Below, in pieces: positions 1 through 10,231 of a DNA stretch of 10,231 bases (the first letter of the stretch is position 1; each line of letters starts with the position of its first letter). Where the stretch lies: NCBI GenBank assembly GCA_001717015.1, contig MAGV01000028.1, forward strand, positions 1 to 10,231, written 5' to 3'. The translations under genes were made by a program, and so were the position numbers. The notes beneath the pieces are model-generated. The model saw nothing but the letters and a program-made list of their open reading frames with translations, was not told the DNA's origin and did no database searches. This DNA comes from Candidatus Methanosuratincola petrocarbonis (ex Vanwonterghem et al. 2016) (GTDB lineage: Archaea; Thermoproteota; Methanomethylicia; Methanomethylicales; Methanomethylicaceae).

Positions 1-909
1 TGGAGCGGGCTTCAACAAGGCCTCCACGCCGCATCAGTGAAGCAAGGCTACGACTTGATGCATCCAACAGGGGGAGTCACTGGGGCTGAGCTTGGTCAAT
101 TCATCAGGGTGACGCTCATGTCTGTGATCTTTCTATGCGGCTGGATGGCGTTTGCGCAGCCTCACCTTGGCGTCAGGATGATGTCCATCCGCTCGATCAA
201 GGAGATGCGCGTAAGCGGCCTGGTCGGTGTGATCTGGGTGGCCATGGCTCACACCGGGGCCTTTTCCGTCGGCCTGATCGCCAGGGCAATGGTGGAAACC
301 ATGAATCTCACCCCACCGGCAACGCGTGAAAAAGCCCTCTACTTCATGGTGGGTAACCTCTTCCACCCCGTCATAGTGGGTATTGTGGCCGCCGGTAGCA
401 TGGCTGCTATGATGTCAAGCGCTGACTCCCAGATGCTGGTGGCTTCAACGAGCGTCGTGAGAGACTTCTATCATAAACTGCTCAAGAAGCCGTTGCCCAA
501 AGAGCGCGAGGTGAGCCTTACCCGGCTGGTGACGATCTTTGTGATCATCGCAGGCATCGTTATCGCGAGAGTGCCTGGAATGATCCATTTCCTTGTACAT
601 CTTGCCTGGAGCGGCATGGGATCGATGTTTGCCCCCTCAATGGTGGCGGCACTGTGGTGGAAGAGAGCCACCGTTCCCGGTGTCCTGTCTTCCATGATGG
701 GGAGTTTCATCACAACGGTAATCTGGTACTTTGTCCCCGCCCTCAAGAACTACATCTTCTTCATGTGGCCGTCTCTCATCGTCGGGATAATACTTTTGAT
801 TGGCGTAAGTCTGGCTACCCAGCCTCCCAAGGACATGGAGAAAGTGGAAGAGCACTTCGCTCGCCTGAACGATCCCAATTACACAACGCACGACGGAGTG
901 GCGTTGTAA
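1..909 (+). CDS. Sodium:solute symporter family protein, C-terminal part (5' end outside window)
   Basis: This is an integral membrane transporter of the SSS (PutP/SglT-like) family, which couples uptake of a small solute to sodium. The frame is open from base 1, so 302 residues remain of a protein usually near 480-500 residues; the N-terminal third or more is missing. Visible family signs are the segment with GVRMMSIRSIKEMR after a membrane helix, which matches the PutP-type loop, and AAMMSSADSQMLVAS, the conserved helix that contributes small and hydroxyl residues to the sodium site. This is followed by DFYHKLLKK at the start of the next loop. Several further hydrophobic helices follow, and the protein ends in a charged cytoplasmic tail. 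The substrate cannot be read from the sequence. A large gap and a hairpin separate it from the downstream operon, so it is probably a separate transcript, although it could import the substrate of that pathway. The family call is firm; the role is not. Confidence 0.88.
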   Translation, partial: WSGLQQGLHAASVKQGYDLMHPTGGVTGAELGQFIRVTLMSVIFLCGWMAFAQPHLGVRMMSIRSIKEMRVSGLVGVIWVAMAHTGAFSVGLIARAMVETMNLTPPATREKALYFMVGNLFHPVIVGIVAAGSMAAMMSSADSQMLVASTSVVRDFYHKLLKKPLPKEREVSLTRLVTIFVIIAGIVIARVPGMIHFLVHLAWSGMGSMFAPSMVAALWWKRATVPGVLSSMMGSFITTVIWYFVPALKNYIFFMWPSLIVGIILLIGVSLATQPPKDMEKVEEHFARLNDPNYTTHDGVAL

Positions 910-1383: not shown

Positions 1384-2634
1384 ATGGCGGAGACTCTCGT
1401 CAAAGGGATCATCGAAAAAAAGGCTGGCCGCACCGTGGAGGCGGGAGAGATCGTTGTTGTAGATGTTGACCTTTGCTACCTCCAGGATGGCACCGGCCCT
1501 CTCACTGTCAGGCAGGTGGAGAAGCTGGGCGCAGATAGGCTCGTTGATCCTGAAAGAGTTGCGGTATTCATCGACCATGCGTCTCCCAGCTGCCACAAGA
1601 GCCTCTCGAACGACCATGTAACGTTGAGGGACTTCACGCGGAAGACCGGCGCACGCCTCTACGATGTGGGCGACGGTGTTTGCCACCAGGTTGCGTGCGA
1701 AGAGCTTGTAAAGCCCGGGCAGATAGTCATCGGGGCTGACTCCCATACCTGCATGGGGGGCGCCCTTGGCGCCCTTGCCACCGGAATGGGCTCCACCGAC
1801 GTGGCGGTGATCATGGCCCACGGCAAGACGTGGCTGAGGGTCCCGGAGACCCTCCGCATACACCTGTCCGGGTCGTTCAAGGATTGGGTCGGTGCCAAAG
1901 ACCTGATACTCCACCTCATAGGCCAGATTGGGGCTGACGGTGCCACCTATAGGGCACTGGAGTTCTGCGGGACCGGGGTGACGAACCTTACGATGGAAGA
2001 CAGGTTGACGATCGCGAACATGGCTGTGGAGTGTGGGGCCAAGGCGGGCCTTTTCCCTTCGGACGACACGACCCGGGAGTACCTCAAGTCTCTCGGACGC
2101 GAAGGGGACTACTCCCCCGTTCCTTCCGGGGACGGGCCTGCTGACGAAGAGATGGAGATAGACCTGGGTTCTCTCGAGCCCACTGTGTCACTCCCCCACA
2201 CTGTTGACAATACCAAACCGGTCGGCGAAGTCCTGGGCCTCCCGATACAGCAGGTAGTCGTGGGGACCTGCACCAACGGACGTGAGGGAGACCTCGCGCT
2301 CCTGGCGAAGTTTCTTCGTGGAAAGAAGGTCCACCCGAATACGAGGCTCCTCATCATCCCGGCGTCGAGGCGAGTCTACCTGAACGCCCTCAAGGAGGGT
2401 ACAATGGAGGTCCTCATTCGTGCAGGTGCGGCCATCATATCCCCGACTTGCGGGCCATGCATGGGGGTGCATGCTGGCATCCTAGGTGATGGTGAAAGGT
2501 GCCTGAGCACCCAGAACAGGAATTTCAAGGGCAGGATGGGCAACCCGGAGTCCGAGATATACCTGGCTTCGCCGGCAGTGGCTGCTGCGACCGCGCTTCG
2601 CGGGTGCATAGCTGATCCAAGGGAGGTGCTGTGA
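1384..2634 (+). CDS. Aconitase/3-isopropylmalate dehydratase family, large subunit (LeuC-like; possibly acts as aconitase)
   Basis: This is the iron-sulfur subunit of a two-subunit hydro-lyase that moves a hydroxyl group between adjacent carbons of a di- or tricarboxylate via a dehydrated intermediate. At 416 residues it has the length of the short LeuC/homoaconitase/dimethylmalate dehydratase group. Motifs run in order: GVCHQV (98-103), GADSHTCMGG (117-126) followed by ATGMGSTD (132-139), GTCTNGR (294-300), and SPTCGPCMG (353-361). Cys296, Cys356 and Cys359 are the expected 4Fe-4S ligands. The start is ATG 1384 because of the AGGAGG spacing. The stop overlaps the small-subunit start by 4 bases (GTGA), implying coupled translation. 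Automatic annotation would say isopropylmalate dehydratase, but no leuA or leuB is nearby and the next enzyme is an isocitrate dehydrogenase, so cis-aconitate/isocitrate is the more likely substrate pair. 2,3-Dimethylmalate dehydratase is another possibility. Family certain, substrate inferred. Confidence 0.93.
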   Translation: MAETLVKGIIEKKAGRTVEAGEIVVVDVDLCYLQDGTGPLTVRQVEKLGADRLVDPERVAVFIDHASPSCHKSLSNDHVTLRDFTRKTGARLYDVGDGVCHQVACEELVKPGQIVIGADSHTCMGGALGALATGMGSTDVAVIMAHGKTWLRVPETLRIHLSGSFKDWVGAKDLILHLIGQIGADGATYRALEFCGTGVTNLTMEDRLTIANMAVECGAKAGLFPSDDTTREYLKSLGREGDYSPVPSGDGPADEEMEIDLGSLEPTVSLPHTVDNTKPVGEVLGLPIQQVVVGTCTNGREGDLALLAKFLRGKKVHPNTRLLIIPASRRVYLNALKEGTMEVLIRAGAAIISPTCGPCMGVHAGILGDGERCLSTQNRNFKGRMGNPESEIYLASPAVAAATALRGCIADPREVL

Positions 2635-3158
2635 ATTTGATTCTCAAGGGCAGGGTCTGGAAGTTCGGCGATGACATCAGCACCGACCTCATAGCGCCGG
2701 GAAGGTACTTCCACTTGAGGTCAAACCTCGACGAGTTCGTAAAGCACGTGCTGGAAGACGCCAATCCCGATTTCGCTGGCCGAGTCAAACCGGGCGATTT
2801 CGTGGTCGGAGGGAAGAACTTCGGCCTGGGATCGAGCCGGGAACATGCACCACTGCTAATCAAGATGGCCGGGGTGAGCGCCGTTGTTGCGAAGTCCGTG
2901 GCGCGCATCTTCTTCAGGAACGCCATCAACATTGGTCTTCCAGTGTTGATTTGCGATACCGACCCCCTCCCAGACGGCGCCCTCCTCGAGGCGGATCTTG
3001 CTAACGGACAGCTGCAGGTTCTCCCTAAAGGGCGCCGCATAGAATTCTCACCGCTGCCTGACGTCATGCTCCGGATACTGCAAGACGGCGGGCTTGTGGA
3101 CCACATAAAGAAGAATAAAGGTTTTGGGCTGGCCGACCAAGGAGGGGATGTTAGGTGA
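2631..3158 (+). CDS. Aconitase/3-isopropylmalate dehydratase family, small subunit (LeuD-like)
   Basis: This is the swivel-domain subunit that completes the hydro-lyase active site with the large subunit encoded just upstream. It has 175 residues, typical for the short archaeal/clostridial LeuD type. [16 protein letters not shown] (11-26) is the family's N-terminal signature. [10 protein letters not shown] (65-74) supplies the substrate-binding serine and arginine, and [14 protein letters not shown] (91-104) is also conserved. The loop after GRY, which helps set substrate choice in this family, reads FHLRSNL (27-33), unlike the usual YLRT-type loop of leucine-pathway enzymes. The start is GTG 2631, preceded by GGAGG (2622-2626) with a short 4-base gap. 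It overlaps the upstream stop as GTGA, and its own stop overlaps the next gene the same way. The two subunits are very likely made in fixed ratio. Confidence 0.92.
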
Positions 3159-4387
3159 CGAGTTCCGTGGGGGACCGGATAAGGGCCCAAGATGGCCACC
3201 TGCACGTGCCGGAGCATGTGATCATTCCCTTCATAGAAGGCGATGGTGTGGGACCGGATATATGGGCTGCATCGCAGAGGGTGTTTGACGCAGCCGTTCA
3301 AAGGTGCCATGGTACGTCCAGGAGTGTTGTGTGGAAGGAGATCCTGGCGGGAGAGAAGGCTTTCAAAGAAACCGGGGAGTGGCTTCCCCAGGAAACCCTC
3401 GATGCCATCAAGGAACATGTTGTTGCCATAAAGGGTCCTCTCACGACCCCGGTTGGGAAGGGCTTCAGGAGCCTTAACGTATCCATACGGCAGATCCTCG
3501 ATCTTTACGCTTGCATAAGGCCTGTGCGCTGGCTCAAGGGGGTGCCTGCTCCCGTAAAGCACCCGGAGAGAATGAACGTTGTCATTTTCCGGGAGAACAC
3601 TGAGGACGTCTACGCCGGGTACGAGTGGCCTTCGGGGAGCGAAGAGGCCCGGGATCTGATGGAATTCCTTAGAATCCGGCTTGGAGTGGGGCTGAGAGAG
3701 GATACGGCGCTGGGGTTGAAGCCGATGAGCAAGTGGGGCAGCAAGCGCCTGATCAGGAAGGCGATACGCTACTCGCTAGAGCGGAAGAGACGGAGCGTCA
3801 CGCTGGTTCACAAGGGCAACATCATGAAGTACACGGAAGGCGCGTTCCGTGACTGGGGGTACGAACTCGCCCGGGAGGAGTTCGCATCCGGGACGGTTTC
3901 CGAAGACGACCTCTACAGTGAGTACGAGGGAAAGGTCCCGCCGGGCAAGGTCGTCGTGAAGGACAGGATAGCCGACAACATGCTCCAGCAGCTCCTGACA
4001 AGGACGGAGGAGTACGATGTCCTCGCGATGCCCAATTTGAATGGCGACTACTTCTCCGATGCCGCCGCAGCACAGGTGGGCGGTCTCGGAATGGCGCCCG
4101 GCGCTAACATAGGTGACACAACGGCCGTTTTCGAGGCAACCCACGGTACAGCCCCCAAGTACACCGGAATGGACAAGGTGAACCCTTGCTCCCTGATACT
4201 CTCGGGAGTCATGATGTTCGAGTACCTGGGGTGGCAGGAGGTGGCGGATACCGTCGTATCCGCCGTCGAGGAGACGATCTCGCAGGGAATCGTCACATAT
4301 GACCTCGCCCGGATGCTTGAGGGGGCGAAGGAAGTCAAGACATCGGCCTTCGCGGATGCCGTGATCGGCAACATGGATAAAGCATAG
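3155..4387 (+). CDS. icd: Isocitrate dehydrogenase, NADP-type
   Basis: This enzyme oxidises and decarboxylates isocitrate to 2-oxoglutarate with reduction of NADP. It has 410 residues, close to E. coli Icd (416). Residues matching the E. coli isocitrate site are present: Ser106, Asn108 and Arg112 in the [11 protein letters not shown] segment, then Arg122, Arg146, Tyr153 and Lys220. Metal-binding aspartates are at 274, 298 and 302. The NADP-selecting set is also kept: Lys335 and Tyr336 in HGTAPKY, Val342, and Tyr382 and Arg386 in TYDLARM. Homologues acting on isopropylmalate lack this serine/asparagine pair. The start is GTG 3155 with GGAGG 9 bases upstream (3141-3145), overlapping the small-subunit stop by GTGA. 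Its direct coupling to the aconitase-like pair suggests the two enzymes work in sequence. The PrpF-family gene follows 12 bases after its stop. Confidence 0.95.
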
Positions 4388-4399
4388 AGGTGAATCCCG

Positions 4400-5548
4400 A
4401 TGCAGAGGAAGATCCCCTGCTGTATATACCGTGGAGGGACAAGTAAGGGAGTGTTCTTCCACGACCGGAACCTCCCCGCCCGTAAGAATACGAGGGACAG
4501 GGTCATACTGGCCGTGTTCGGAAGCCCGGATGTAAGGCAGATAGACGGGCTAGGGGGCGCTGACTCGCTCACCTCCAAGACTGCGATCATCGGCCCACCG
4601 ACCATTGAAGGGGCCGACGTGGATTACACATTCGGCCAGGTGAGCATCACGGCGCCCCTCGTGGACTACGGGAGTAACTGCGGAAACATTTCTTCCGCCG
4701 TGGGGCCTTTCGCCATAGAGGAGGGGCTTGTCAAGGCTACGGATCCCCTAACGCGCGTCCGCATCTACAATACCAACAGCAGGAAGATAATCGTTGCTGA
4801 GGTTCCTACAGATGGCGGGTGCCCCGTCATGGAAGGCGAGTACGCGATTTCGGGCGTGCCGGGTACAGGGGCCAAGATAACACTGGATTTCGTAGATTCC
4901 GGTGGCGCGGTCACGGGGAGGCTCCTCCCCACCGGGAACCGGAGGGACACGATAGACCTTGGGCCACTGGGCACATTTGAGGTTTCCCTGGTGGACGCGG
5001 CCACCGCGGTCGTGTTCGTAAAGGCCCAAGACCTCGGGCTGGAGGGCACCGAGGGGCCCTCCAGGATCAACTCGGATGACCATCTCCTGAGAGTCCTCGA
5101 GGCAATCAGGGGGGCTGCAGCGGTCATGACGGGCAAGGTCAAAGAGGCGAGCGATGCGGTTTCCAAAAGCCCGTCGGTTCCCAAGGTGGCATTTGTGGCG
5201 CCTCCCGCCTCATACGAGACGGTCGCTGGCGAGGCGGTCAATGAGAGCGAAATAGACCTGGTATCTAGGATCATGTCCATGCAGAAAGCCCACAAGGCTT
5301 ACGCGGTCACGGGGGCCATATGTACTGCTGCGGCTGCCGCCATCGAAGGGACCGTCGTAAACGAGGTCCTCCGGCTCACACCTGGCAAAGAGGTGAGGAT
5401 AGGCCACGCAGGAGGGACGATTGCGGTGGAGACCCAGGTGGAGGTCAGGGGCAGTGAGATAGTCTTGATGCGTTCCGCCCTGGGACGGACCGCACGGCGC
5501 ATAATGGAAGGTTTCGTCTATGTTCCGGAAAAGGTTTTTGCCGACTAG
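4400..5548 (+). CDS. PrpF-family isomerase (aconitate/methylaconitate/methylitaconate isomerase type)
   Basis: PrpF-family proteins have the diaminopimelate epimerase fold and shift double bonds or cis/trans geometry in unsaturated tricarboxylates and related acids. The protein has 382 residues. Recognisable segments are RGGTSKG (11-17), GGADSLTSKTAI (52-63) with the likely catalytic Lys60, and DYGSNCGNISSAVGPFA (89-105) with the likely catalytic Cys94. HAGGTI, with the family's C-terminal glycines, lies near residue 335. Known members include 2-methylaconitate isomerase (PrpF), 3-methylitaconate isomerase (Mii) and fungal aconitate isomerase (Adi1). Because an isocitrate dehydrogenase and an aconitase-like pair sit upstream, interconversion of trans- and cis-aconitate fits best here. 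Methylcitrate-cycle PrpF is less likely, since no prpB or prpC is seen. The ATG at 4400 is preceded by an AGAGGTGA site about 7 bases away. Family firm, substrate inferred. Confidence 0.9.
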   Translation: MQRKIPCCIYRGGTSKGVFFHDRNLPARKNTRDRVILAVFGSPDVRQIDGLGGADSLTSKTAIIGPPTIEGADVDYTFGQVSITAPLVDYGSNCGNISSAVGPFAIEEGLVKATDPLTRVRIYNTNSRKIIVAEVPTDGGCPVMEGEYAISGVPGTGAKITLDFVDSGGAVTGRLLPTGNRRDTIDLGPLGTFEVSLVDAATAVVFVKAQDLGLEGTEGPSRINSDDHLLRVLEAIRGAAAVMTGKVKEASDAVSKSPSVPKVAFVAPPASYETVAGEAVNESEIDLVSRIMSMQKAHKAYAVTGAICTAAAAAIEGTVVNEVLRLTPGKEVRIGHAGGTIAVETQVEVRGSEIVLMRSALGRTARRIMEGFVYVPEKVFAD

Positions 5549-5563
5549 AAGCGGTCCAACGGT

Positions 5564-5568
5564 GGAGG
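5564..5568 (+). promoter_or_regulatory. Ribosome binding site supporting a TTG start
   Basis: GGAGG lies 9 bases before TTG 5578 and 24 bases before the next in-frame candidate, GTG 5593. It favours the TTG as the start of the flavoprotein. Confidence 0.6.
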
Positions 5569-5577
5569 TGTCGTCGC

Positions 5578-7236
5578 TTGCCATATCCGTCAGTGCTTCA
5601 ACCCAGCATTAGGTTGCTAGAACAAACAAGGCAGGCCCGGCTCAAGCAGGTTATACCCAGGCTCAGCCCCGAGGGGAAGCAGGACCTGCTGCGCAAGTTT
5701 CACCCTGATTTCGATCCCAGGTACATGAGGGAGATTCAGGTGGGTCCGAACGCCGGCCTGAAGGTACCCGTGGAGATAGCCGATATCCTTGAGGCTTACA
5801 GCAGGGTCGATCCAGACACGTACCCGGTTGAACGCGTGGACGTCTCGTGTGATGTGCTGGTGATCGGAGGGGGAGGGGGAGGCGCCACCGCAGCCCTGGT
5901 GGCCCGGGCCGAAGGCGCGAGCGTTGCGCTGGCAACGAAGCTCAGGCTGGGGGATTCTAACACCATCATGGCTGAAGGCGGCATAGCTGCGGCCACGAAA
6001 CCCACTGATACGCCCGTGCACCACTTCTTAGATACGATGGGCGGGGGCCGATACGCCAATTCACCCGAGCTGGTGAAGACCCTGGTTCACGACGCGCCCC
6101 TTATCGTCAAGTGGCTGAAGGACCTTGGCGTAATGTTTGACCAGGAAGAGGACGGTACTATCGTGACGTCCTTCGCGGGGGGGCACTCAAGGAGAAGGGT
6201 CCACTCGTGCAAGGATTTCAGCGGTATGGAGATGATGCGTGTCCTGCGAGACGAGATACTGAACAAGTGCATACCGGTTATCGAGTTCTCGCCGGCGGTA
6301 GAGCTTCTCCTCGACGGGGCGGGTCGGTGCGCCGGAGCCATACTCGAGAACATCGAGACCGGGGAGTGCCTCACGGTCAGGGCAAAGGCCGTGGTTCTCG
6401 CCAGCGGGGGGCTTGGGCGCCTTCACATACGCTCCTTCCCAACCACGAACCACTACGGCGCAACCGCCGACGGTCTTGCGATAGCATACAGGGCGGGGGC
6501 CCGCCTATTGGATATCGACTCCGTGCAGTACCATCCCACGGGCATCGCTTGGCCCGAGCAGATGCTCGGCCACCTGGTAACCGAGGCGCTGAGGGGTAAC
6601 GGTGCTCACCTGGTGAACGCAAAGGGAGAAAGGTTCATCAACGAGCTCGAGACGCGCGATACCACATCCTCGGCCATCATCAGGGAGTGCATCGACAGGA
6701 ACCTGGGCGCGGTAACCCCAACCGGCATGAAAGGGGTCTGGCTGGATGTCCCAGTCATTGACATGGTATGCCCGGAGGGTACCATCCAGCGCCTCTTCGC
6801 GGGCATAGTGGGGAGGTTCGAGAGGTACGGGATCAATGTCAAGACAGAGCCCATACTGGTATTCCCCACCCAGCACTACCAGAACGGGGGCATCAGGATC
6901 GATGGGGATTCCCGCACCGACATCCCCGGGCTCTTCGCTGCAGGTGAGGTGTCGGGCGGGGTCCACGGCCGGAACAGGCTTGGTGGCAACTCTCTCGTTG
7001 ATATATTCGTGTTCGGCAGGAGGGCGGGGATGCAAGCAGCTTCGTGGGCCAGGGAGAATCCCCCGGAGGAGCCCACGCTTGACCACGTAAGGAGGCACAA
7101 CAAGACCCTTGAGGCCCTTGGAGTCGATAAGGAGAGGAGATCCCCGAAGATTCTTCCGGATTACACCCGGGAGGGGATTAAGAGAGTCGAAACGGCTGTA
7201 TCAGGTTTGCACCTACTAAGGAGGGAATGCCGGTGA
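5578..7236 (+). CDS. FAD-dependent fumarate reductase/succinate dehydrogenase-like flavoprotein
   Basis: This is a soluble FAD oxidoreductase of the SdhA/FrdA/L-aspartate oxidase superfamily, which adds or removes hydrogen across a C-C bond next to carboxylates. It has 552 residues. A conserved extension of about 90 residues comes first, then the FAD Rossmann motif VIGGGGGGAT (95-104). MAEGGIAAAT (131-140) follows, then QYHPTG with His319, the EALRGNGAHL segment around Arg339, TQHYQNGGI with His433, and NRLGGNSLVD (466-475). These histidines and arginines are the usual carboxylate-binding and proton-transfer residues. Where E. coli SdhA has the histidine that bonds FAD covalently (SHT), this protein has SNT with Asn128, so FAD is probably not covalently bound. 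There is no signal peptide, and no iron-sulfur or membrane subunit follows. In this operon, aconitate/tricarballylate interconversion, like TcuA, is plausible; fumarate reductase is the alternative. It overlaps the cupin gene by GTGA. Confidence 0.9.
   Translation: MPYPSVLQPSIRLLEQTRQARLKQVIPRLSPEGKQDLLRKFHPDFDPRYMREIQVGPNAGLKVPVEIADILEAYSRVDPDTYPVERVDVSCDVLVIGGGGGGATAALVARAEGASVALATKLRLGDSNTIMAEGGIAAATKPTDTPVHHFLDTMGGGRYANSPELVKTLVHDAPLIVKWLKDLGVMFDQEEDGTIVTSFAGGHSRRRVHSCKDFSGMEMMRVLRDEILNKCIPVIEFSPAVELLLDGAGRCAGAILENIETGECLTVRAKAVVLASGGLGRLHIRSFPTTNHYGATADGLAIAYRAGARLLDIDSVQYHPTGIAWPEQMLGHLVTEALRGNGAHLVNAKGERFINELETRDTTSSAIIRECIDRNLGAVTPTGMKGVWLDVPVIDMVCPEGTIQRLFAGIVGRFERYGINVKTEPILVFPTQHYQNGGIRIDGDSRTDIPGLFAAGEVSGGVHGRNRLGGNSLVDIFVFGRRAGMQAASWARENPPEEPTLDHVRRHNKTLEALGVDKERRSPKILPDYTREGIKRVETAVSGLHLLRRECR
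7218..7224 (+). promoter_or_regulatory. Ribosome binding site that decides the cupin start
   Basis: AAGGAGG lies 8 bases before GTG 7233 but only 2 bases before the in-frame ATG 7227. The GTG also gives the same GTGA overlap seen at two other junctions in this operon, so GTG 7233 is preferred. Confidence 0.6.
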
Positions 7237-7586
7237 AGACCAGGGTTTTCAGGATCGAGGAAGTAGTGTGGGAGGAGCCGCCAGAGCACTATGATGCCTT
7301 TTCAAAGCTCCTAGTTAACCCCGCGACCGTTGGATCTAAGCACTTTGATTTCCGGATCTCAAGCTACCAGCCTAGAGGTTACTGCGCGTGTCACACCCAC
7401 AAGGTCCAGGAGCAGATCTACTACGTGCTACAGGGAAAGGGCCTCATGGAGCTGGACGGGGAAAAGTGCGTAGTCGACCCTCACACAGTCATACACATAC
7501 CCCCGGGGGTGGAGCATGCCATAAGCAACACAGGCCTTGAGGACCTCGTGTTTTTCGTGATCACCTCTCCACCTGAAGACAAGTAG
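7233..7586 (+). CDS. Single-domain cupin protein
   Basis: This small cytoplasmic cupin barrel has 117 residues from GTG 7233 (119 if ATG 7227 is used). Cupin motif 1 is visible as RGYCACHTHKVQEQIYYVLQG (48-68), with His54, His56 and Glu60 as probable metal ligands. Motif 2 is IPPGVEHAISN (89-99), with His95 as the fourth ligand, so a bound divalent metal is likely. No second domain and no DNA-binding region are present. Proteins of this kind can be isomerases, dioxygenases, decarboxylases or ligand sensors, and the sequence does not decide among them. It overlaps the flavoprotein gene by 4 bases and is therefore probably co-translated with it, so a small-molecule role in the same pathway is likely. 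The metal-site reading is good; the function is unknown. Confidence 0.88.
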   Translation: MKTRVFRIEEVVWEEPPEHYDAFSKLLVNPATVGSKHFDFRISSYQPRGYCACHTHKVQEQIYYVLQGKGLMELDGEKCVVDPHTVIHIPPGVEHAISNTGLEDLVFFVITSPPEDK

Positions 7587-7600
7587 CCGGGAGGAAAGAG

Positions 7601-8669
7601 ATGAAGGCAAGGGCTCAGATTGCCACCGGGTTATCTAAGCCCCTCGAGGAACGGGAATGCCCGCTCGGGTGCCCGGGTCCCGGAGAGATAGTGATCAAGA
7701 TGGAAATGGCCGGGGTGTGTAGTTCAGACCCCCACATAACGCGGGAGCATCACCCCATGTCGTGGAACGCCCTATCCTTCACACTGGGCTACGAGAACGT
7801 GGGAAGGGTTCAGGTCACACGCCGCGCGGGTCATGACGCACCGCGCGAAGGCGGTGTGATTACGAGGCAAAGGAGCCTGACGTGCGGTACATGCTACTGC
7901 CGCACCGATCGGAAGCCCTGGCTCTGCGGTGACAGGGTAGCGTACAGTGTCAACCGCTCCGATGCTGGCCCACCCCATCTTGGTAGGGGGTACGCGGAGT
8001 ACGTTCGCCTGGACGCTGGCAAGCCCGTTGTGAAGATCCCGGATGGCAGCCCTCCGGAACAGTTCGTGGCCGCGGGATGCACCGCTGACACTGCGATGCA
8101 CGCGACGGAGGTGGCCCGGATGGGGCTGGGCGAGGATGTGGTCATCCTGGGGTGCGGTTACGTCGGCCTCTGTGCGATAGCGTGCGCGTCTGCCTCGGGA
8201 ACCCGGTCCGTGACTGCCCCTGATCTCGTCGCGACAAGACCGGAACTCACCCGGGACTTCAGCGCAACGGCGACCCTCGATGTGTCGCGGATGACCCCTA
8301 AAGAGCGCCTGGATGTGGCCCGTTCCCTGACAGGGGGTTTCGGGGCCTCGAAGGGTGTTCGAGTGCCTCCAGAAAAGCCGCAGGAGGGTTTGTGCTCACC
8401 AGGAGTGACGCCCGGTACATCGCCAGGCTTCGGCCATGACGGGGGAACGGAATTCGAGACCAGTGGCTGGTGCGATATTGCGTCCAACGAAATAGAGCTG
8501 GTGGGGTGCTTCGCAAGGGCTACCGCCACCTGCCCATCGATTTCACAGCGCGGTCTGAACGCCCGCTCGAGAGACTCGTGACCTGCAGATTTGAGCTTGG
8601 ACGAGGCCAACGAGGTCCCTCGCCTGGGCTGAGGAGCGAAAGGGCTTTAGGGGCGTAATAGACTACTGA
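7601..8669 (+). pseudogene. Decayed zinc-dependent alcohol/polyol dehydrogenase (MDR family)
   Basis: The reading frame from ATG 7601 stops at 8581, but the family sequence continues in other frames to a TGA at 8667-8669, giving the normal MDR length of about 356 residues. The first part reads well: AGVCSSD with catalytic-zinc Cys40, the GYAEYV segment, and the NAD-binding GCGYVG. After about 8350 the expected protein jumps frames: VFEC at 8355 in one frame, GGFVLTRSDARYIA from 8383 in another, SNEIELVGCFA back in the first frame, and KGYRHLPIDFTA from 8515. DEANEV follows from 8600, and AEERKGFRGVIDY ends at 8669. The zinc-ligand His of the usual GHE is Tyr64 (codon 7790-7792). The structural-zinc loop CGTCYC lacks one residue between its second and third cysteines. 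GGGAGG 6 bases before the ATG is intact. The parent enzyme probably oxidised or reduced a small alcohol or polyol; no activity is expected now. Confidence 0.82.
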
Positions 8670-8692: not shown

Positions 8693-10231
8693 TTGACAAG
8701 AAAGGTGATGAAGGGTGCGGACATAATCGTTGAGTACCTGATAGGCGAGAAGGTGCCTTATGTCGTGGTGCTGAGCGGGCATGGCAACGTGGGGCTCCTT
8801 GATGCACTTGCCCAGAACAAGGACAGGATCAAGACCATCGGCGTCCACCACGAGCAGGCCGCGGGCCATGTGGCAGATGCCTACTTCCGTGTTGCCCACA
8901 GGCCGCTTGCAACGGTTACCTCGTGCGGTCCCGGCTCCGCTAACTTGCCGATTTCCCTTGCATGTGCCTTCTACGATTCCTCGGCTTTTCTGGCGATAAC
9001 GGGCAACGTGCCCACGAGCCAGTTCAACAGGGGGCCCTTCCAGGAGACGGGCAGGCACTACCAGGGGGATTTCCCGTCTGTTGTGAAGCCGTATGTGAAA
9101 CGTGCCTACCAGCCCACTCGTGTGGACATGGTGCCCACCGCGGTGAGGCAGGCATTCAAGACGATGCTTTCAGGCAGGCCAGGCCCCGTCAACCTGGACG
9201 TGCCGTTCAACGTGTTCCAGGAAGAGGACGAGGTGGAGTTCCCGGAGCCCGCCGACTGGAGGTGGGGGATCAGCACCAGGGCAGGTGGGGATGTGGATAG
9301 CATTAGCAACGCTTTCAACATGCTCCTTAACGCGAAAAAGCCACTAATCCTTGCGGGCCACGGCGTGGTCCTCTCCGAGGCGGCCAAAGAGCTCAAGACC
9401 CTCGTGGAGCATCTAGGGATCCCCGTTGTCACTACCCCTAACGGGGCTGGCTCCATCGATGCCAGGAGCCCGCTTTGCCTCGGCCCGACAGGCCGCAATG
9501 GGACGTACCAGGCCAACCAGGCGTGCAGGAACGCAGATGTGCTCCTTGCGCTCGGCACGCGCTTCTGTGACAGGGTTTCCAGCGCCTGGATCCCAGGGTT
9601 CACCTTCAACATCCCGCCCACCAGGCTCATTCAGGTGGACATAGACCCTGACGAGATCGGGAGGAATTTCGCTCCTACCGTTGGGATAATGGGGGATATC
9701 CGGAGCGTTCTCCGGCAGGTGCTTGCGGTCATAAAGGAAAAAGGCGCTTCCCGTACTGAGCGCTCCGAATGGCACCGCGAAATAGCCGGCTGGACGAAGA
9801 CCTGGGAGGATGCGTGCAAGCCCAACAGGGCCTCCGACGCGGTTCCTATTCGCCCGGAGCGCCTCATTTCGGACCTGAGGACGCTCTTCCCCGAGGACGG
9901 CATACTCCTTTCGGACGCAGGCGTGCATCACAACTGGCTGGTACAGCACTGGCCGACATACGAGCCGCAGACGCTCATCCAGTCATGGGGGTTCTCCGCC
10001 ATGGGTTTTGGCATGTGCGGTGTGGTGGGAGCCAAGCTCGCAAGGCCGGACAAGGAGTGCCTGGCGGTTGTCGGGGACTACGGGTTCATGATGGCCCCGC
10101 ACATAATCTGCACAGCTGTGGAGCAGAACCTCCCGGTCAGGTGGATAGTTTGGAACAACGGGGCCCAGGCCGCCATAAGGGACATCCAGCTCTTCCAGTT
10201 CGAGGGGCGGGAGATCGTTACTGAATACTGT
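8693..10231 (+). CDS. Thiamine-diphosphate-dependent enzyme of the acetolactate synthase family (3' end outside window)
   Basis: The frame is open from TTG 8693 to the window end with no stop: 513 residues of an enzyme usually about 550-600 long. It has the three-domain plan of acetolactate synthase, glyoxylate carboligase and related 2-oxoacid enzymes. The N-terminal pyrimidine-binding domain carries HHEQAAGHVADAY (52-64) with catalytic Glu54. Its SCGPGSAN segment lies near residues 80-90, and RPGPVNLDVP closes the domain. The central domain includes LALGTRFCDRVS. The C-terminal pyrophosphate domain has GDYGFMM (461-467) and WNN near 487-489, the magnesium/ThDP motif. Bases after the motif (NGAQAAIRDIQLFQFEG) differ from the usual acetolactate synthase sequence, so the substrate is probably different. 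Given the upstream 2-oxoglutarate-forming enzyme, a 2-oxoglutarate decarboxylase-like role is possible, but biosynthetic acetolactate synthase cannot be excluded. It starts 23 bases after the dead dehydrogenase. Confidence 0.9.
   Translation, partial: MTRKVMKGADIIVEYLIGEKVPYVVVLSGHGNVGLLDALAQNKDRIKTIGVHHEQAAGHVADAYFRVAHRPLATVTSCGPGSANLPISLACAFYDSSAFLAITGNVPTSQFNRGPFQETGRHYQGDFPSVVKPYVKRAYQPTRVDMVPTAVRQAFKTMLSGRPGPVNLDVPFNVFQEEDEVEFPEPADWRWGISTRAGGDVDSISNAFNMLLNAKKPLILAGHGVVLSEAAKELKTLVEHLGIPVVTTPNGAGSIDARSPLCLGPTGRNGTYQANQACRNADVLLALGTRFCDRVSSAWIPGFTFNIPPTRLIQVDIDPDEIGRNFAPTVGIMGDIRSVLRQVLAVIKEKGASRTERSEWHREIAGWTKTWEDACKPNRASDAVPIRPERLISDLRTLFPEDGILLSDAGVHHNWLVQHWPTYEPQTLIQSWGFSAMGFGMCGVVGAKLARPDKECLAVVGDYGFMMAPHIICTAVEQNLPVRWIVWNNGAQAAIRDIQLFQFEGREIVTEYC

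Follow-up and report, generated by a model that had tools for sequence, protein, structure and literature searches.

We propose that a packed run of six genes on a contig assigned to Candidatus Methanosuratincola petrocarbonis forms a catabolic cassette that would feed the aconitate pool into 2-oxoglutarate, and on the sequence comparisons described below we place the probability of this reading at about 0.6. The stretch analyzed (the window) is the whole of contig C21, 10,231 bp, with a gene cut at both contig ends. The original prediction had claimed a packed run of HacAB, an NADP-type isocitrate dehydrogenase (ICD), a PrpF-family isomerase, a flavoprotein, and a cupin, and all six genes were confirmed between positions 1384 and 7586 of the plus strand. 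Three of the junctions are overlaps (4, 4, and 10 bp), and the other two are gaps of 12 and 29 bp. The genes are as follows:

1384..2634, plus strand: HacA-type large subunit of an aconitase-family hydro-lyase (PRK00402, TIGR01343; ATG at 1384)
2631..3158, plus strand: HacB/LeuD-type small subunit with an aconitase-like LRSN loop (TIGR02087)
3155..4387, plus strand: NADP-type isocitrate dehydrogenase, ICD (TIGR00183; PDB 2iv0)
4400..5548, plus strand: PrpF-family isomerase, proposed aconitate isomerase (Pfam PF04303)
5578..7236, plus strand: flavoprotein of the succinate dehydrogenase/fumarate reductase (SDH/FRD) type with a TTG start, proposed tricarballylate/trans-aconitate enzyme (Pfam FAD_binding_2)
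7227..7586, plus strand: small cupin protein (Cupin_2), overlapping the flavoprotein gene by 10 bp

In the proposed pathway, the flavoprotein would interconvert tricarballylate and trans-aconitate, PrpF would convert trans-aconitate to cis-aconitate, HacAB would turn cis-aconitate into isocitrate, and ICD would oxidize isocitrate to 2-oxoglutarate with NADP; we infer the stereochemistry, the substrates, and the order of these steps. The unsaturated partner of succinate in SDH-type enzymes is fumarate, which is the trans isomer. Since the SDH/FRD family makes or uses the trans isomer, a member acting on tricarballylate should yield trans-aconitate rather than cis-aconitate, which would give a reason for the isomerase. 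According to PMC11495376, the substrate of aconitase is cis-aconitate, and trans-aconitate acts as an inhibitor, so clearance of the latter would help the next enzyme. From the same source, PrpF-superfamily enzymes are aconitate isomerases in Bacillus, and PMC5690661 describes a PrpF crystal structure obtained with trans-aconitate.

The gene neighborhoods of related flavoproteins were examined by scanning GTDB species genomes, which gave 16 loci (L003-L018). PrpF was found in 6/16 loci, aconitase in 8/16, and isocitrate dehydrogenase (IDH) in 8/16; all three were present in six (L003, L004, L005, where the aconitase gene is cut, L006, L009, and L010) and also in a further genome (L140). In the comparison of genomes that the original prediction had suggested, these neighbors proved to be kept in relatives. 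The hosts of the six loci are Desulfovirgula thermocuniculi, Desulfofundulus, a Desulfovirgula metagenome-assembled genome, Desulfotruncus, Clostridiaceae BRH_c20a, and Formimonas; that is, PrpF, aconitase, and IDH recur beside the flavoprotein in Bacillota. The aconitase and IDH families differ among the window, the Desulfovirgula group, and Formimonas. Desulfovirgula carries a PRK07229 aconitase (1027.8 bits; cut-off, 612) and an NAD-type IDH just under the cut-offs of its models (487.4 of 510 and 425.7 of 432.4), Formimonas has an aconitase of the Desulfovirgula family (65% by BLAST) with a eukaryote-type NADP-IDH (671.6 bits; cut-off, 335), and the window has HacAB with a prokaryotic NADP-ICD. 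That enzymes of different families occupy the same slot is the strongest indication that the chemistry from aconitate through isocitrate to 2-oxoglutarate is kept.

Transporter genes lie near some of these loci, namely TRAP DctPQM (L003), TctA (L007), and DASS (L010). The Formimonas operon continues into subunits of a 2-oxoacid:ferredoxin oxidoreductase, of which the alpha subunit scored above the cut-off of a general 2-oxoacid model, the beta subunit had its best score, 320.6 bits, on a 2-oxoglutarate model with a cut-off of 364, and the gamma subunit was also under cut-off. Several PrpF cassettes are preceded by a DUF3870 gene (L009, 7527-7865; L140; L141; L142).

Family scans placed HacA and HacB in the two-subunit HacAB/LeuCD kind. 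HacA passed the PRK00402, hacA_fam, and IPMI_arch models (553.1 bits on PRK00402, cut-off 385; 551.9 bits on TIGR01343, cut-off 385.7), and HacB passed LEUD_arch TIGR02087 with 191.4 bits (cut-off, 108.95). On the aconitase model PRK07229, a one-chain model of 647 positions to which HacA corresponds as the large half only, HacA reached 379.5 of 612. An LRSN loop in the swivel domain is shared by the window HacB and 8/8 aconitases from a motif scan of L003-L018, and it was absent from all 21 same-phylum small subunits and all three PDB small subunits compared. This is an indirect sign that the window enzyme is an aconitase, as opposed to an isopropylmalate isomerase or homoaconitase. ICD passed the NADP isocitrate dehydrogenase equivalog TIGR00183 (630.9 bits; cut-off, 567.3), and its best PDB match was the isocitrate dehydrogenase 2iv0 (E 9.3e-170).

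The isomerase scored 432.6 bits on PF04303 (cut-off, 27) and fell under both NCBIfam equivalogs (OMA tautomerase, 350 of 440; PrpF, 340 of 440.55). It is 52% identical to the 3-methylitaconate isomerase Mii (3g7k) and 42% identical to the PrpF of S. oneidensis, and the catalytic Lys and Cys are conserved. PrpF is rare in the phylum, being above cut-off in 3/398 genomes with the host's own included. In G100, one of the two other PrpF-bearing genomes, it is grouped with genes resembling SdhA and SdhB. This arrangement, at positions 8040-12081 of stretch L091 from a same-phylum archaeon, is adjoined by a convergent TAXI TRAP transporter.

By its sequence features, the flavoprotein is an SDH/FRD-type enzyme. 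It passed Pfam FAD_binding_2, with no match to the SDH C-terminal domain in Pfam, and it has an N-terminal extension of ~85 residues. The 25 best of its 52 NCBIfam matches were all below cut-off, with TfrA, NadB, and SdhA/FrdA at the top and no TcuA model among these 25. A catalytic set of His, Thr-Glu, Arg, His, and Arg, whose roles we take to be those known from FrdA, is kept in 40/40 aligned flavoproteins, and Asn128, which occupies the position of the SDH His for covalent FAD, is likewise found in 40/40. The residue before the last catalytic Arg (HGxNR) was considered as a site for the third carboxylate; it is Arg or Lys in both clades of the flavoprotein tree described below and Ile in L009 and L010, and does not tell substrates apart. 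An iron-sulfur (Fe-S) gene immediately precedes the flavoprotein gene in 15/16 loci; in the one exception, L013, the locus is truncated at a contig end. A ferredoxin-cytochrome b protein was found in L007-L010, and a search confined to the contig found no TcuB-like membrane electron carrier among its nine predicted proteins.

The family context of the flavoprotein was assessed with a tree of 40 sequences, used in place of an earlier 23-row tree in which the window was left unplaced. In the order of Desulfovirgula, 17/113 genomes carry flavoprotein relatives at E 1e-120, in two identity sets (60-72% and 53-58%), and 20 stretches were taken from this order (L141 and L142 are from the genomes of L004 and L005, and L144 is on the contig of L013). 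The tree split the rows into groups of 19 and 21 at 100/100 support, with the window among the 19. The group of 21 includes five archaeal class-mates and L016; HdrB- or HdrC-like genes adjoin the flavoprotein gene in 19 of its rows, the other two (L146 and L154) being cut by contig ends, and BLAST of the available stretches detected PrpF, aconitase, or IDH in 0/21. Most members of the group of 19 lie near genes for tricarboxylates or branched acids. On this side of the tree, eight rows, the window included, have PrpF, three have aconitase and/or IDH and no PrpF, and eight were labeled Cit/Mmg. Among the last, L012 has CoA-transferase, CitE-like, and MmgE/PrpD genes; L011 and L018 share this layout by size and kinship, with the L018 CoA-transferase confirmed by scan; L015 has CitE and CitF, and L017 has CitF. 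L143 and L144 have succinyl-CoA-ligase-like and fumarase-like genes, L144 also with MmgE/PrpD and L143 with an aconitase 3.6 kb downstream. The label of L014, a contig of 3.1 kb, comes from kinship alone.

Two further observations concern the other side of the tree. In the archaeal class-mates (L049-L053), a related flavoprotein occurs with an Fe-S gene and HdrB/HdrC-like genes, and L049 has an HdrA2-like protein and a hydrogenase-4/antiporter-like protein nearby; the flavoprotein of these loci is possibly an Hdr-linked fumarate reductase. In the order of Desulfovirgula, the second flavoprotein clade recurs as HdrC-HdrB-FeS-flavoprotein (L145-L159) with no tricarboxylate genes, and it may be the ordinary SDH/FRD of these organisms.

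Several findings weigh against a tricarboxylate cassette. The enzyme activities are predicted from the genes. The window lacks the Fe-S gene, and a search of the host bin G000 did not find one (best E 0.004; genome 74.5% complete). The closest solved relative of PrpF is Mii of nicotinate fermentation (375.8 bits, versus at most 272 for the others in PDB). PrpF is missing from 10/16 loci; five of these (L008, L013, L014, L015, and L016) have little flank, and the remaining five (L007, L011, L012, L017, and L018) lack it although the upstream flank spans 10 kb and the downstream flank 2 to 10 kb. The Cit/Mmg-type neighbors within the group of 19 show that the flavoprotein family is not tied to one substrate, and the grouping of the window with the PrpF/aconitase/IDH rows has a support of only 83/73 and a long branch. 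Finally, the cupin is unexplained. It is a generic Cupin_2 protein (57.4 bits) with weak PDB matches (best E 2.4e-7), and BLAST found no match to it in the loci of relatives; its place in the packed run stands as predicted, and its link to the cassette gained no support.

The order from trans-aconitate through cis-aconitate and isocitrate to 2-oxoglutarate, as originally predicted, was supported by the Bacillota neighbors, the differing aconitase and IDH families, and the residue signs; this support did not extend to the action of the flavoprotein on tricarballylate or to its direction. For the direction, we favor, at about even odds, oxidation of tricarballylate for carbon over reduction of trans-aconitate. 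The latter, a variant of the same pathway with all other steps in common, would split trans-aconitate, one part being isomerized and oxidized to 2-oxoglutarate and the other reduced by the flavoprotein to tricarballylate as an electron sink. We give this variant less than even odds: the same gene partners suit oxidation, the fold is silent on direction, and the window has no electron-delivering subunit near the flavoprotein gene.

In a housekeeping role, HacAB and ICD would supply 2-oxoglutarate from the cell's own citrate and PrpF would rescue stray trans-aconitate, whereas the flavoprotein would be a separate fumarate reductase or aspartate-oxidase-like enzyme whose downstream position is a coincidence. 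Aconitase and ICD are the usual route to glutamate, and the inhibition of aconitase by trans-aconitate (PMC11495376) would suit a rescue enzyme. Against this, the same flavoprotein clade adjoins PrpF, aconitase, and IDH in Bacillota, and PF00285, the citrate synthase family that also covers PrpC, was absent from 11/11 genomes (the incomplete G000, seven genus-mates, and three bacterial genomes; control, 13/14) in a test outside of which Re-type enzymes fall. A search for citrate synthase had been proposed as a check, and none turned up within that family; we consider the housekeeping role unlikely.

Slightly less probable is a flavoprotein specific for a C5 branched acid such as methylsuccinate or mesaconate, with neighbors serving several acids. 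The gene set of L012, L011, and L018 resembles an itaconate/methylsuccinate cluster in which the MmgE/PrpD protein accepted methylsuccinate but neither cis- nor trans-aconitate (PMC12290011). In the tree, however, these three loci branch apart from the window, and the isocitrate dehydrogenase and aconitase-type enzyme of the window point to C6 acids.

A nicotinate-type module, with PrpF isomerizing 3-methylitaconate and HacAB serving as dimethylmaleate hydratase, draws on the kinship of PrpF to Mii and on the membership of HacB in the LeuD/DmdB family. Several results make it very improbable. The run contains a true isocitrate dehydrogenase, the HacB loop is of the aconitase type, and no methyleneglutarate mutase or dimethylmalate lyase was found among the nine window proteins or the scanned selection of relatives' neighbors. 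In addition, the Gly residues in RGGTSK, LGGAD, and FGQVS are common to the window PrpF, the six operon PrpFs, and the S. oneidensis PrpF, and are Ala in Mii, a weak sign since one Mii was compared. The neighbors named beforehand as refuting (prpC, dimethylmalate, and nicotinate genes) did not appear among the scanned proteins. MmgE/PrpD-family genes lie near some more distant flavoproteins (L008, L012, and L144), with PrpD scores, where taken, of 78.5 and 60 of 950. The 2-methylcitrate cycle (AcnD/PrpF) was set aside with the Mii/DmdAB module, as HacA scored 86.7 of 1419.85 on the AcnD model and the family covering PrpC was absent.

The host of the contig was evaluated by composition and by comparison with related genomes. 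G000 is a bin of 1.27 Mb in 84 contigs, and its rRNA is archaeal. The tetranucleotide profile of the window scored 0.78 against the mean of 14 sampled contigs, within their range of 0.52-0.94, and its codon-use distance of 0.46 lies within their 0.30-0.94; 7/8 relatives compared were farther from the window in tetranucleotide profile (0.12-0.42), the exception being L017 (0.66). By one script, Shine-Dalgarno motifs were found for 4/8 window open reading frames (ORFs), versus 65/146; inspection by eye at annotated starts gave 8/8 in the window, a count not comparable with the script's 65/146. In seven genus-mates and 14 other family members, PrpF (at 1e-20) and the flavoprotein (at 1e-60) had no match. 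In the seven genus-mates, ICD had only 39-44% matches to shorter or partial frames, and HacA reached at most 49% over most of its length. Since composition and codon use fit G000, yet the five contig proteins compared lack close counterparts in genus-mates, the contig is either an adapted import or mis-binned, and the host is uncertain. The cassette itself was probably acquired by transfer. Six other contigs of G000 (L035, L037, L039, L040, L042, and L043, the last with V/A-type ATP synthase subunit B) deviate in codon and tetranucleotide use from the other sampled contigs, and the bin may be mixed.

Three further genes flank the run:

1..909, plus strand: partial sodium:solute symporter (SSF family, 99.2 bits), 5' part off the contig
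7601-8581: alcohol dehydrogenase ORF, Pfam match in the N-terminal domain only
8693-10231: acetolactate-synthase-like thiamine pyrophosphate (TPP) enzyme, truncated at the contig end

The symporter ends 474 bp before HacA and is, by its position alone, a possible importer. The remainder of the alcohol dehydrogenase ORF is unlike its family, and the gene may be decayed. The TPP enzyme has BbmA as its best PDB match, matches of at most 38% in 60 relatives, and 36% in the genus-mates.

The run is of a recurring cassette kind and is a variant of known tricarballylate and trans-aconitate systems. As in the Tcu system of Salmonella (TcuA, TcuB, TcuC), a flavoprotein dehydrogenase would send aconitate into central metabolism, and the ferredoxin-cytochrome b neighbor of some relatives' flavoproteins presumably resembles TcuB. 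Unlike Tcu, the window flavoprotein is of the SDH/FRD type, its relatives have an Fe-S partner, and an isomerase is added; TcuA is reported to form cis-aconitate, according to a title cited in PMC10468695. In the Tar system of Bacillus velezensis (TarA, TarB, TarR; PMC11495376), a PrpF-superfamily isomerase likewise supplies cis-aconitate to central metabolism. Tar consists there of isomerase, transporter, and regulator only, whereas the window run adds hydratase, IDH, and flavoprotein; of TarB/TarR-type neighbors, the window has only the cut-off SSS symporter upstream of the run, where the contig ends. Compared with the complex II family (SDH, FRD, TfrA, NadB), the window flavoprotein has Asn for the FAD-binding His, the N-terminal extension, no SDH C-terminal Pfam match, and no Fe-S gene. 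Acidaminococcus fermentans also uses trans-aconitate anaerobically, by a route through citrate, oxaloacetate, and pyruvate, and the portion of PMC3035267 available does not mention an isomerase. The gene set of the run was not described in the open-access literature searched, a search outside of which subscription papers mostly fall.

In that literature, few anaerobic routes for the use of trans-aconitate or tricarballylate are described. The rumen is a source of tricarballylate. Some plants are rich in trans-aconitate (PMC11495376). Taking the argument further, it is conceivable, at less than even odds, that the tricarballylate/trans-aconitate couple is the substrate of one branch of the SDH/FRD family, that stereochemistry makes PrpF obligatory to this branch, and that with aconitase and IDH it forms a citrate-synthase-free way into 2-oxoglutarate, assembled repeatedly from different families and carried into the archaeon. 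If the proposed pathway is true, a flavoprotein group with no fitting family model would gain a substrate, the isomerase would have a chemical reason, and 2-oxoglutarate would be fed without need of citrate synthase, with the cultured Desulfovirgula, Desulfofundulus, and Desulfotruncus as test beds.

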